This document shows, piece after piece, positions 57,696 through 63,372 of a DNA stretch of 64,000 bases (position 1 is the first letter of the stretch; the number at the start of each line of letters is the position of its first letter). The notes under the pieces were generated by a model. The model made no database searches. It had not been told where the DNA came from and was given only the letters and a program-made list of their open reading frames with translations. Both the position numbers and the translations under genes were made by a program. Source of the stretch: Prochlorococcus sp. RS04 (GTDB taxonomy: Bacteria > Cyanobacteriota > Cyanobacteriia > PCC-6307 > Cyanobiaceae); contig NZ_CP018346.1 of assembly GCF_001989455.1 (NCBI RefSeq), positions 1,550,001 to 1,614,000 of the forward strand, given 5' to 3'.

Positions 57696-58007
57696 CTATT
57701 TATTTTCTTTCTCTTCTTTTTCTTCTTGTTCGATTTTGAAAGAGTTGATAAAAAGCCTTATACCAATGATGAAAAATGTAATGGAGGCTATTGTCTTAAG
57801 AACTACTTCTGGTAAAAAACTTGAAATAGACCCACCTGTTAAAGCTCCTAGTAAACTTGCAAAAACAAGTGCTGAAGAAGATCCTAGAAAAACTGCTAAT
57901 GGTTTATTTGAAGTGCCACTTATAGTTAAAGTAGCTAGTTGAGTTTTGTCACCTAATTCAGCTATGAAAACAGTTAGAAATGTTGATACTAATAAACTTA
58001 AAATCAT
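57696..58007 (-). CDS. UPF0016/GDT1-family half-transporter, second gene
   Basis: 103 residues, three helices, with the single ion-binding motif AELGDKTQLATL near residue 16-27. Full-length GDT1/PAM71/Mnx proteins (Mn2+ or Ca2+ exchangers) have two such motifs in one chain; here each lies on a separate protein. It begins at the base after the stop of the first half. Confidence 0.85.
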   Translation of the reverse strand: MILSLLVSTFLTVFIAELGDKTQLATLTISGTSNKPLAVFLGSSSALVFASLLGALTGGSISSFLPEVVLKTIASITFFIIGIRLFINSFKIEQEEKEEKENK

Positions 58008-58334
58008 TTATAAATAATTTTTGAATGTTTCGTAAGCTAAAAATATACTTATCAATATCATTAAAGTACCAGTAGATAAAGCAAATTTGCTAGGAGATAT
58101 TTTTTTTGATACCCATTTACCAATAAGAACTCCTACTATGCTAGAGCTTATTAATGCTAGAGAACTTCCAAGAAAAACAATTATTGGCCTGCCCGATTCA
58201 GCAGAAAGCATTAATGTGGCTATCTGAGTTTTATCGCCAAGTTCAGCAATAAAAATTGTTGTAAAAGTCGTTATAAATATTGAAAAAAAACTTTTTTCTA
58301 GATTGTTTTCTTTTTTTTCTATTTTACTATTCAT
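58008..58334 (-). CDS. UPF0016/GDT1-family half-transporter, first gene
   Basis: 108 residues: a polar N-terminus, then three helices and the motif AELGDKTQIATLML. It overlaps the YkgJ-like gene by 4 bases and touches the second half without spacing, so a heterodimeric manganese/calcium transporter is inferred. In Synechocystis and chloroplasts the full-length homologue exports Mn to the thylakoid lumen. Confidence 0.85.
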   Translation of the reverse strand: MNSKIEKKENNLEKSFFSIFITTFTTIFIAELGDKTQIATLMLSAESGRPIIVFLGSSLALISSSIVGVLIGKWVSKKISPSKFALSTGTLMILISIFLAYETFKNYL

Positions 58335-59931: not shown

Positions 59932-60102
59932 CTACTCTTCTTCTTCTTCTTCAATAGGATAAACAAATCCTTGAGCTTTCCCAGTTAAAACTGATTTACC
60001 TAAAGATATAGCTTTTTGAGCTGCTATTGCTGCTTTTCCTTTCCAAACAGCGTGCCTTTGGTTCCTTTTGCTTTTTGATTTTTTCTTCTTTGGTACAGCC
60101 AT
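59932..60102 (-). CDS. rpmF: 50S ribosomal protein L32
   Basis: 56 residues: [20 protein letters not shown] followed by [21 protein letters not shown]. Typical bL32 start (A-V-P-K-K-K-x-S-K-S-R-R/K). The C-terminus ends in six Glu, which is unusual only in length. Lies between the DUF565 gene and the ftsH homologue, divergent from the latter. Confidence 0.95.
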
Positions 60103-60232: not shown

Positions 60233-61987
60233 GTGTTTAGATCAAAATTCTCATATTCAGATTCTAAATCAAGTTATTCGGATCTTCTAGAAGATATAGA
60301 GACGGGGAAAATAGAATCAATATTTTTCTATCCAAGACAGAGAGAAATTGATGTTCTGTATAAAAATGGTGATAAATTTAAAATACCTATCCTTTACAAC
60401 GATCAATTAATCCTTGAAAAGGTTACTGAAAATAAGGTAAATCTAACTATTAACAATAGTAGAAAAGAAGCCTCAGCTGCTAATTCATTTGCTTCAATAA
60501 GTCTTTTCTTGATTTTCATATTAGCTATAGTTTTAATACTGAGGAGTACATCAAAATTGGCTTCCAGAGCTTTTGGTTTTACTAAAAATCAAACTAAATT
60601 TGTAACTATTGATGATGTAGAAACGAGATTCGATGATGTAGCTGGCGTGCCTGAAGCCGCTGAGGAATTAAAAGAGGTAATAACATTTTTGAAAGAACCT
60701 AAGAAATTTGAAAATCTTGGAGCAAAAGTTCCTAAGGGAGTTCTTTTAATAGGCCCACCAGGAACAGGTAAAACATTATTAGCTAAAGCAATTGCTGGTG
60801 AATCAGGAGTGCCTTTTCTCTCAATATCGGCATCAGAGTTTGTAGAACTTTTTGTTGGTGTTGGAGCAAGCCGAGTTCGTGATCTGTTCTCTAAGGCTAA
60901 GGAAAAATCTCCTTGTATAATTTTCATTGATGAAATTGATTCCATTGGTAGGCAAAGAGGCTCTGGGATCGGAGGTGGAAATGATGAAAGAGAACAAACC
61001 CTTAATCAGCTTCTAACTGAATTAGATGGTTTTGCTGATAATTCTGGGATAATTGTTTTAGCAGCTACAAATAGACCAGATATTTTGGATGCAGCACTAT
61101 TAAGACCAGGTAGATTTGATAGGAAAATTGAAGTAATGCTTCCAGATTTAGATGGAAGAAAAAAAATTCTTTCAGTTCACTCACTTTCCAAACCACTTTC
61201 AAGCGAAGTTGACTTAGGATATTGGGCTTCTAGAACAGTTGGATTTTCGGGAGCAGATCTTGCAAACTTGATGAACGAGAGTGCTATTCACTGTGCAAGA
61301 GACGAATCTAAATTAATCAGTGACCTTCATATAGAAAATGCTCTTGATAAAATTACTATTGGCCTGAGAAGCTCATTAATAACTTCTCCTAATATGAAAA
61401 AAATTATTGCTTATAATGAAGTTGGTAGAGCAATTGTATCTGCTGCAAGAAATGGAATTGAATCAGTTGATAAAATTACGATTTTACCTAGATCTGGATC
61501 TATAGGAGGATATACAAAAATATGCCCTGACGAAGATGTAATTTCTAGTGGATTGATTTCAAAAAAACTATTATTTTCAAAAATTGAAATTGCTCTAGCT
61601 GGAAGAGCAGCAGAAACGATAGTTTTTGGTGAAGGTGAAATTACACAATGCTCCATAAATGATATCTCTTATGCGACAAATATCGTAAGGGAAATGGTTA
61701 CAAAATATGGATTTTCAATTATTGGTCCAATTTCAATGGATTCTGATAATAATGAAATGTATTTAGGAGATGGATTATTTAGAAGAAAGCCTCTGATAGC
61801 AGAAAATACCAGTTCTAGAATTGATAATGAAATCATAAATATTTCTAAAATTTCATTAAATAATTCAATAAAAATATTGAAAAAAAATAGAGTCTTACTA
61901 GATAAATTAGTTGACATACTTTTAAATCAAGAAACTATAGATAAAGAAGTTTTTAAATTAACAACTTCTAAATTGTTGAAAGTTTGA
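60233..61987 (+). CDS. FtsH homologue with lost zinc motif (FtsHi-like)
   Basis: 584 residues from GTG. Compared with FtsH it lacks the first membrane helix: only one helix (about 86-104) precedes the ATPase. The AAA+ part is intact: Walker A GPPGTGKT at 174-181, IIFIDEID, and [19 protein letters not shown]. The protease zinc motif HExxH reads NEVGR at 395-399, so both His ligands are lost, and only the later Asp in SINDISYAT remains. Plants have such inactive FtsHi proteins; this looks like a cyanobacterial counterpart, or a chaperone-like AAA+ that pairs with active FtsH. Confidence 0.93.
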
Positions 61988-62019: not shown

Positions 62020-62772
62020 TTGATAATTAAAAACAACACAACTAAGTTATTAGTTACGCTTTCATTTTTACTTATTCTTCCTTTTATACAAAAACAATGG
62101 TTAAATTTGTATTCACTCAATATTAATGTTATTTCCTTTTATTCAATCATTTACTATTTGAGTGGTGCAATATGTCCATCTTTGGTGTATATAAACTCTT
62201 TAAAAAACTATACTTATTATAATTTTACAAGGAATAAAATTCATAGTATAAAAATAATTAAAGGAAAAAGATTACTATTCTTAGTAGCAATAAATTTAAT
62301 ATTTCTCTCTTACTTAATTGCTGAATATATATATATAAATTTTGATTTTATATTTAATTTATTTCTTGAAGGAATTAATGTACCAAAACCGGATATTCCA
62401 CAGTTAAGTTTTTTCATATTTTTAATTTCTATCCTATTAATTTTTAAGAAATCTAGGTTTCTGTTAAAAAAAATAATATTGGTAAATTTTATTTTGATTT
62501 CTTTCTATCTTTGGCATCTTCAAATTAATAATATTAGTGTTGATGATCAGTTTTATATTTATAGATATTTTGGTTTAAATGACTTAAATTTAATTAATCT
62601 TTTTATCCTAGTCGCCATAGAAATTTTTTTCTATACGTGGTCCTTCTTATCATATAAAACTAATTTGAGCGATTGGATCGTACCAAAACCTCAAAAGGGG
62701 GATTTTATCCCCTTTTTGAATATATTTATTTTTTATTTTTTTATAATTATTTACTACTCAATACTTACTTAA
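62020..62772 (+). CDS. polytopic membrane protein, unknown
   Basis: 250 residues from TTG, with about seven hydrophobic segments and Lys-rich loops. No family pattern found. A terminator-like hairpin lies inside its 3' part (62693-62717). Confidence 0.65.
   Translation: MIIKNNTTKLLVTLSFLLILPFIQKQWLNLYSLNINVISFYSIIYYLSGAICPSLVYINSLKNYTYYNFTRNKIHSIKIIKGKRLLFLVAINLIFLSYLIAEYIYINFDFIFNLFLEGINVPKPDIPQLSFFIFLISILLIFKKSRFLLKKIILVNFILISFYLWHLQINNISVDDQFYIYRYFGLNDLNLINLFILVAIEIFFYTWSFLSYKTNLSDWIVPKPQKGDFIPFLNIFIFYFFIIIYYSILT
62693..62717. terminator. terminator-like hairpin inside coding sequence
   Basis: AAAAGGGG-GATTTTAT-CCCCTTTTT. It lies 55 bases before the stop of the membrane protein gene, and about 70 bases past the stop of the peroxiredoxin gene on the other strand. 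It is symmetrical, so it could end the peroxiredoxin message. Confidence 0.55.
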
Positions 62773-62787
62773 ATGTTTCTAATTCTT

Positions 62788-63372
62788 CTATAGGGCAGAA
62801 AAATATTCCTTACTACCTTTGGGGTCCTCTAACATTGTTTTCTCCCCGGGTGTCCAGTTTGCTGGACATACTTCATCAGGGTTTGAGGCAACATATTGAT
62901 AACCTTGAAGGATCCTTAGCGTTTCATCAACATTTCTACCTACAGGAGCCTTGTTAACAGTCGTATGCATAACTACTCCTTCTGGATTGATAAGAAATAA
63001 ACCTCTATCGGCCTCTCCATCATCATTAAGAACATTGTAAGCTTGGCAAATTTCTCTTTTTAAGTCAGAAACTAACGGGTAGTTAATATCACCTATTCCG
63101 CCTTCATTTCTTGGGGTTTGTATCCAAGCCAAATGACAGTGTTTGCTATCAACTGACACTCCAAGTATTTCAGTATTAAGAGCTGAGAAATCTTGGTATC
63201 TATCACTAAATGCAGTAATTTCAGTTGGACACACAAATGTAAAATCTAGTGGGTAGAAGAATAAAACAACCCATTTACCTCTTAGACCTGAAAGTGTAAC
63301 CTCCTTAAACTCTTGATCATATACTGCTGTAGCACTAAAGTCTGGTGCTTCTTGGCCAACTCTTAAGCTCAT
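62788..63372 (-). CDS. typical 2-Cys peroxiredoxin
   Basis: 194 residues. Reduces H2O2 with thioredoxin as partner. Peroxidatic Cys48 in [10 protein letters not shown], resolving Cys169 in [15 protein letters not shown] at 91-94 and YF near the C-terminus match the features that make such enzymes prone to over-oxidation in eukaryotes. A long upstream gap (304 bases) holds its promoter. Confidence 0.96.

Follow-up and report, generated by a model that had tools for sequence, protein, structure and literature searches.

A conserved FtsH1 ortholog of Prochlorococcus that lacks the zinc-protease motif and keeps its ATPase core

Introduction

The closest described relative of the gene reported here is cyanobacterial FtsH1 (slr1390 of Synechocystis), a type-B partner of FtsH3. 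The accessible parts of reviews class both FtsH1 and FtsH2 as type B and state that repression of FtsH3 lowers FtsH1, and the subunit types of the cyanobacterial complex are given, again in accessible excerpts, as 1:1. The FtsH1/FtsH3 hetero-oligomer is described as essential in Synechocystis and as degrading repressors such as Fur (accessible text of PMC11287208). In freshwater picocyanobacteria, FtsH1 rises on some amino acids, according to the available portion of PMC11851481.

FtsH proteins that have lost the protease site and kept the AAA domain are established in plants and algae, as FtsHi1–5 and in the Ycf2–FtsHi import motor, the ring of which contains Ycf2 and FtsH12. In cyanobacteria and chloroplasts, the ClpP/R core likewise combines an inactive subunit, ClpR, with active ones; ClpR resembles the inactive member of a mixed ring that we propose below, but it belongs to an unrelated serine protease and serves as an analogy only. 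Work by Zhang in 2010 reportedly states in its title that type-B protease activity is dispensable in an Arabidopsis heterocomplex. Most plant FtsHi are placed, with exceptions, in an i-AAA-related group (accessible text of PMC9020784).

For Prochlorococcus, Mishra 2019 (PMC6460958) lists one FtsHi in P. marinus SS120, a statement repeated by Mishra and Funk 2021 (PMC8197885). In its accessible text the SS120 report is a one-strain count, without orthology, clade-wide spread, single origin or Lys/Arg constraint; the protein counted is very probably the ortholog of the gene described here. Our literature search by titles and the starts of abstracts, with subscription journals mostly outside it, returned nothing on the FtsH1 identity, spread, history or constraint of such a protein. 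Bonisteel 2018 measured the transcript in strain MED4, and the word zinc is absent from its main text.

Results

The window, a 64,000-nucleotide stretch of the Prochlorococcus sp. RS04 genome, encodes an ftsH1 ortholog without a protease site (60233..61987, plus strand, as are all features of this gene given below). The product, which we call FtsH1i, has 584 residues and a GTG start. The open frame begins 15 bases 5' of the GTG, directly after a stop codon; the GTG is kept in all 63 orthologs of the genus, and the spacing to the upstream stop differs among them. A promoter and terminator scan gave no signal above shuffled sequences. The N-terminal region (residues 14–74; 60272..60454) is a remnant of the extracytoplasmic FtsH_ext domain that scores at the cut-off (PF06480, 25.5 bits) and matches profile positions 30–97 of 103, the first-helix part being absent. 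A single predicted membrane helix follows at about residues 85–103 (60485..60541; hydropathy peak 2.91), where the AlphaFold2 model places a helix at 77–117. The AAA+ ATPase domain (residues 170–301; 60740..61135; PF00004, 158 bits), the AAA lid (residues 326–368) and the M41 domain (residues 384–574; 61382..61954; PF01434; dN/dS 0.09–0.16) complete the protein.

The M41 match of 151 bits stands so far above the Pfam cut-off of 29.9 that it is not a chance hit, and compares with 227–255 bits for three further M41 genes of the same genome, each of which has HExxH. With AAA and M41 domains over its full length, the window protein is a member of the FtsH family, and it passes the NCBIfam FtsH equivalog model TIGR01241 (645.6 bits, cut-off 600), so annotation by that model would label FtsH1i a zinc metalloprotease. 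The AlphaFold2 monomer model (mean pLDDT 80, pTM 0.62) matched FtsH structures in Foldseek, chains of the Ycf2–FtsHi motor included.

The first-pass annotation had read NEVGR in place of the HExxH of FtsH, with Walker A, Walker B and the second region of homology (SRH) intact, and direct reading together with Pfam bears this out. The degenerate motif N-E-V-G-R occupies residues 395–399 (61415..61429), at the position of H-E-x-x-H in active FtsH. We searched the entire window protein for HExxH and found it nowhere, and the genus holds no sister strain with an intact motif: the ortholog, present in 63 of 68 genus genomes at 71–100% identity, reads NE[VIA]GR in every case (NEVGR 61, NEIGR 1, NEAGR 1). 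The asparagine and arginine replacements hold across the window's genus, and the agreement of all 63 orthologs rules out a strain error or assembly artefact.

The wider family search covered 400 genomes drawn evenly from a larger group, the 68 of the window's genus among them. An ortholog was read in 138, a count that excludes nine duplicate loci and one fragment (L104); no ortholog was recognised in 25 genomes, and the 237 others lay outside the reading. HE[VI]GH is present in 44 of the 138 orthologs (intact hereafter) and HExxH is missing from the other 94 (dead hereafter). The trait had been presented as that of one free-living picocyanobacterium, and while the gene is indeed there, its restriction to that organism did not hold, as seven genus-level groups carry the dead form (g1 63, g56 15, g11 8, g17 3, g39 2, g4 2, g27 1). 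Outside the window's genus the motif reads QIIGK, HEIGK, HQIGK, HEAGR, NEAGK (as in the ortholog of G010), NEVGK, YEIGR, NEIGR, NEVGR, NEIGI, QQVGR, RESAR or RNASK. In the 29 genomes checked for each paralog, FtsH3 always has HEAGH and FtsH2 always HE[VI]GH.

Across the 94 dead orthologs, the column of the second zinc histidine holds Arg in 69, Lys in 24 and Ile in one, and that of the first holds Asn in 68, Gln in 16, His in 7, Arg in 2 and Tyr in one. The glutamate of the motif is lost from 19. Asp477 (61661..61663), in a column that we take to be the third zinc ligand of FtsH, is Asp in all 44 intact and in 80 of the 94 dead orthologs. The ATPase residues are invariant in all 94: the Walker A lysine and threonine, the Walker B aspartate and glutamate, Asn280, Arg291 and Arg294 of the SRH, and the pore phenylalanine and glycine. 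Columns next to them differ in one to three orthologs. In Walker A (GPPGTGKT, residues 174–181; 60752..60775), Lys180 and Thr181 are fixed, and P175 and T178 occur in 91 and 93; in the F-V-G pore loop (residues 207–209; 60851..60859), F207 and G209 are fixed, with V208 in 91 and Ile in three. D233 and E234 of Walker B (FIDE, residues 231–234; 60923..60934) do not vary, and in the arginine region of the SRH (RPGRFDR, residues 291–297; 61103..61123) R297 is kept in 93 and is Lys in one. The most diverged ortholog, from G003 (L085:5034-6749), has 46% identity to the window protein and the motif RNASK. Its Walker A reads GSPGTGKT and its SRH RAGRFDK, and the ATPase catalytic residues are still present. 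As judged from these alignments, FtsH1i has lost its zinc-binding histidines and retains a complete ATPase core; with the gene maintained, it is an FtsHi in the loose sense of that name.

Five genus assemblies that are 93–97% complete (G376, G383, G388, G390 and G394) lack both ftsH1 and the adjoining peroxiredoxin gene. As the neighbour is absent too, we do not accept these as losses of ftsH1; the joint absence may reflect either a true deletion or a stretch that the assemblies miss. Among the genomes without a recognised ortholog, 24 were checked for the peroxiredoxin, G033, which has no clear ortholog, being outside this check. Twenty of them also lacked a close peroxiredoxin, and in G026 and G073 that gene lies at a contig end facing the gap; the other two were G011 and G059, the latter yielding only L104, which is masked by Ns. 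We found no clean loss of ftsH1 where the region is assembled, among the few such cases that can be judged.

The two N-terminal helices that flank the extracytoplasmic domain in FtsH are reduced here to one hydropathy peak, in agreement with the earlier reading of one helix ahead of the AAA+ domain and a stop just 5' of the GTG. That reading had treated the missing helix and the missing protease site as a joint loss, which the intact orthologs rule out: 42 of the 44 with HExxH also have one peak, and the other two have a weaker second one. The loss of the first helix thus predates that of the protease site and is separate from it. A second, N-terminal peak appears in all 12 FtsH1-type sequences from outside the family, and in 11 of 13 N-termini from outside the family a tract like A-L-A-Q, typical of a signal-peptide cleavage site, closes the first-helix stretch. 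The first helix of these proteins looks like a cleavable signal peptide. In the family FtsH1, the N-terminal domain of about 80 residues must either cross the membrane without a first helix or signal peptide, or have a different topology. The ortholog of G316 (L008) has an open frame of 615 residues with a hydrophobic stretch 5' of the conserved GTG. This stretch was not scored as a helix, and few other genus members have longer frames.

We placed the gene among FtsH proteins by the branching order of a FastTree of 220 sequences, which shows four cyanobacterial types, with the window clade sister to the L002 (FtsH2) type and apart from FtsH3 and FtsH4. Clade names come from the primers of Bonisteel 2018, matched by eye: L002 corresponds to the Synechocystis FtsH2 type, L001 to FtsH3, L003 to FtsH4, and the window gene to the 'FtsH4' of MED4. 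Bonisteel 2018, in its accessible text, equates MED4 'FtsH4' with Synechocystis FtsH1, cautioning that the match is 'less obvious'. Around both intact and dead orthologs of the family the genes lie in one common order, HAD hydrolase, DUF565, rpmF on the minus strand, ftsH and peroxiredoxin on the minus strand, with members missing at some loci. In the window, the conserved neighbours are rpmF for ribosomal protein L32 upstream (59932..60102, minus strand; PF01783) and the peroxiredoxin gene downstream (62788..63372, minus strand; PF00578). On tree position and synteny, FtsH1i is placed as the ortholog of cyanobacterial FtsH1 (type B), with which it shares the AAA core and M41 domain and from which it differs in lacking HExxH and the first helix or signal peptide. 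An open reading frame between ftsH1 and the peroxiredoxin gene (62020-62772, plus strand) appears hydrophobic by eye, has no Pfam family and, in the synteny comparison, was matched only at the loci of the genus. Two adjoining small genes at 57696-58334 (minus strand), each with a GDT1 match (PF01169), look like halves of a cation/proton antiporter made as separate proteins, and both are present at many of the compared family loci.

A full-length quick tree of 24 representatives of the 94 dead orthologs, 31 intact ones and three outgroup rows gathers the dead representatives into one clade (SH-aLRT 97). In a tree built on the part ahead of M41, which needs two state changes, the intact L091 joins the dead rows in a weak open fork, and an AU test of this region does not reject one dead clade (p 0.5; the likelihood is 0.18 higher when the clade is forced). 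In both trees L085 sits on a long branch. Since the 24 representatives form one clade, a single old event is the simplest, though not a proved, reading of the protease-site loss. Seven dead genomes retain the first histidine although the second is already basic, which suggests that the second was lost first.

The second-histidine column has changed at least eight times across the whole tree, yet it holds Lys or Arg in 23 of the 24 dead tips. We simulated neutral codon evolution along the dead clade with assumed base composition and transition bias; at branch scale 0.5, the lowest tried, 1.2% of the 500 runs ended with at least 23 of 24 Lys/Arg tips, and scales 1, 2 and 4.7, likewise with 500 runs each, produced none. 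By this measure, Lys or Arg at the position is held beyond the simulated neutral drift. In a 20-row set, 49 of the 191 M41 columns, this one included, reach the same conservation level, so the retention points to constraint and not by itself to a special role.

Whether the gene is still under selection was read from dN/dS in four genome sets (21, 36, 3 and 6 pairs). The ratios are rough: dS in the closest set is 0.13 for FtsH1i and nearly three times as high, 0.35, for FtsH3, which means that the genes of that set have differing histories. Within that limit, FtsH1i gave 0.066–0.098 for the whole gene, 0.025–0.055 for AAA plus lid and 0.089–0.159 for M41, against 0.013–0.029 for FtsH3 and FtsH2 in the same genomes. 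The roughly 3–6-fold difference indicates weaker constraint on FtsH1i than on those paralogs. All 94 dead orthologs have a long reading frame that stays open across AAA and M41, even in sets where dS is close to 1, and the tips of intact and dead FtsH1 orthologs look similar in length in the full-length tree. These ratios are clear in pointing to purifying selection on FtsH1i, M41 included, that is weaker than on the paralogs. The earlier proposal that an ATPase-only FtsH is kept for its usefulness is in keeping with a gene maintained by selection.

Discussion

We consider it probable that FtsH1 has here become a pseudoprotease, an ATPase subunit of a hetero-hexamer whose active member is FtsH3. 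The partnership with FtsH3, argued by analogy from the orthology to Synechocystis FtsH1, is our best reading of the locus and agrees with the active FtsH partner that the first-pass annotation had suggested. The second histidine would have given way first to Lys or Arg, the positive charge being held since, perhaps as a stand-in for zinc, and the first histidine would have decayed later and repeatedly. FtsH1i would still build a mixed ring with FtsH3, as FtsH1 does in Synechocystis, and would bring to it a pull powered by ATP, its pore loops, placement in the membrane and, through M41, contacts that keep the subunits together. All peptide cutting would fall to the FtsH3 subunits, three of the six if the ring is 1:1. 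Such a ring would cut at half as many sites and pull at undiminished strength, which would slow or redirect degradation while the complex is retained. Several points weigh against this reading, among them the weaker constraint on FtsH1i than on FtsH3 and FtsH2, the weak fork with L091, and an N-terminal domain that, as in the intact orthologs, has no first helix or signal peptide to take it across the membrane. The accessible literature on Prochlorococcus reports no isolated FtsH complex. By qRT-PCR in MED4, the FtsH pool is balanced between isoforms 1–3 (Bonisteel 2018, accessible text), so isoform 4 is low. The legend of a metaproteome figure, in the part of that source available to us, names FtsH1–3 only.

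FtsH1i might instead form a ring of its own, or another ring that does not cut, and use ATP to unfold proteins or to extract membrane proteins, as the Ycf2–FtsHi motor of chloroplasts would exemplify. The conserved AAA+ catalytic residues and pore loop fit such a motor, known FtsHi act in motors of this kind (accessible text of PMC9020784), and Ycf2–FtsHi chains are among the top Foldseek matches (8xqw_F at rank 3, 8xku_E at rank 5). Chains of active FtsH rank equally high, however, and the likeness is common to FtsH generally. As FtsH1 pairs with FtsH3 in Synechocystis and we found no sign that this pairing has ended, we hold a separate motor to be unlikely. The first-pass annotation had compared the gene to plant FtsHi, and the similar loss stands. 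It need not mean common descent: the window gene is an FtsH1 by tree and synteny and most plant FtsHi fall in the other, i-AAA-related group (PMC9020784, accessible text), so the losses look independent.

Another account is that protease activity became unneeded and the gene is being lost, the dead subunit having no particular role. In its favour are the variation in the first histidine, the glutamate and the third-ligand aspartate, a dN/dS above that of FtsH2 and FtsH3, and the strongly diverged ortholog of G003 (RNASK, 46% identity). Such a decaying relic is hard to square with frames open through AAA and M41 in every dead ortholog even at dS near 1, with the low dN/dS of the AAA region (0.025–0.055) or with the basic residue held at the second-histidine position; the lack of a clean loss in assembled regions, from the few cases open to judgement, also speaks against it, and we regard it as quite improbable. 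A decoy that caps or dampens FtsH3, perhaps FtsH2 as well, by occupying places in the ring would draw on partners of the same family that have HExxH, and a dead subunit would reduce the cutting sites. A mere decoy could do without Walker B, the arginines and the pore loop, yet all of these are conserved, which makes this account very doubtful. Continued proteolysis through a different metal site strikes us as scarcely credible: the window gene does retain Glu396 and Asp477 and a few relatives keep HE (HEIGK, HEAGR), but both zinc histidines are gone from all 63 genus orthologs, and other relatives also lose the glutamate (QIIGK, QQVGR, RNASK) or the aspartate.

A bolder form of the argument is that FtsH1 cutting in much of Prochlorococcus was switched off once, early in its history, when the second zinc histidine gave way to a basic residue, that this residue is retained as a built-in mimic of zinc, and that the dead subunit is an essential motor, with FtsH3 or alone. 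We give this combination an outside chance. If true, photosynthetic cells that are among the most abundant would use what is elsewhere in cyanobacteria a central regulatory protease chiefly for unfolding, and, were the motor to act alone, FtsH1i would parallel in bacteria the FtsHi import motor of chloroplasts. The 94 species-level genomes with an FtsH1 minus its zinc motif indicate that the need for the subunit is separable from the need for its protease site. They also place an FtsHi-type pseudoprotease, still called a zinc metalloprotease by TIGR01241, across a large group of free-living bacteria.

Loss of known FtsH1/FtsH3 substrates as the cause was considered for PhoU and Fur and set aside, as the presence of neither gene tracks motif loss. 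PhoU (PF01895), present in the control Synechococcus elongatus, was found in one of 40 single-contig genomes of the family: all 20 with dead FtsH1 and 19 of 20 others gave no match; FtsH1 was read in eight of these others, always with HExxH. Fur-family genes occur in all 40, with two matches in each of the 20 dead genomes and two to four in the 20 others.
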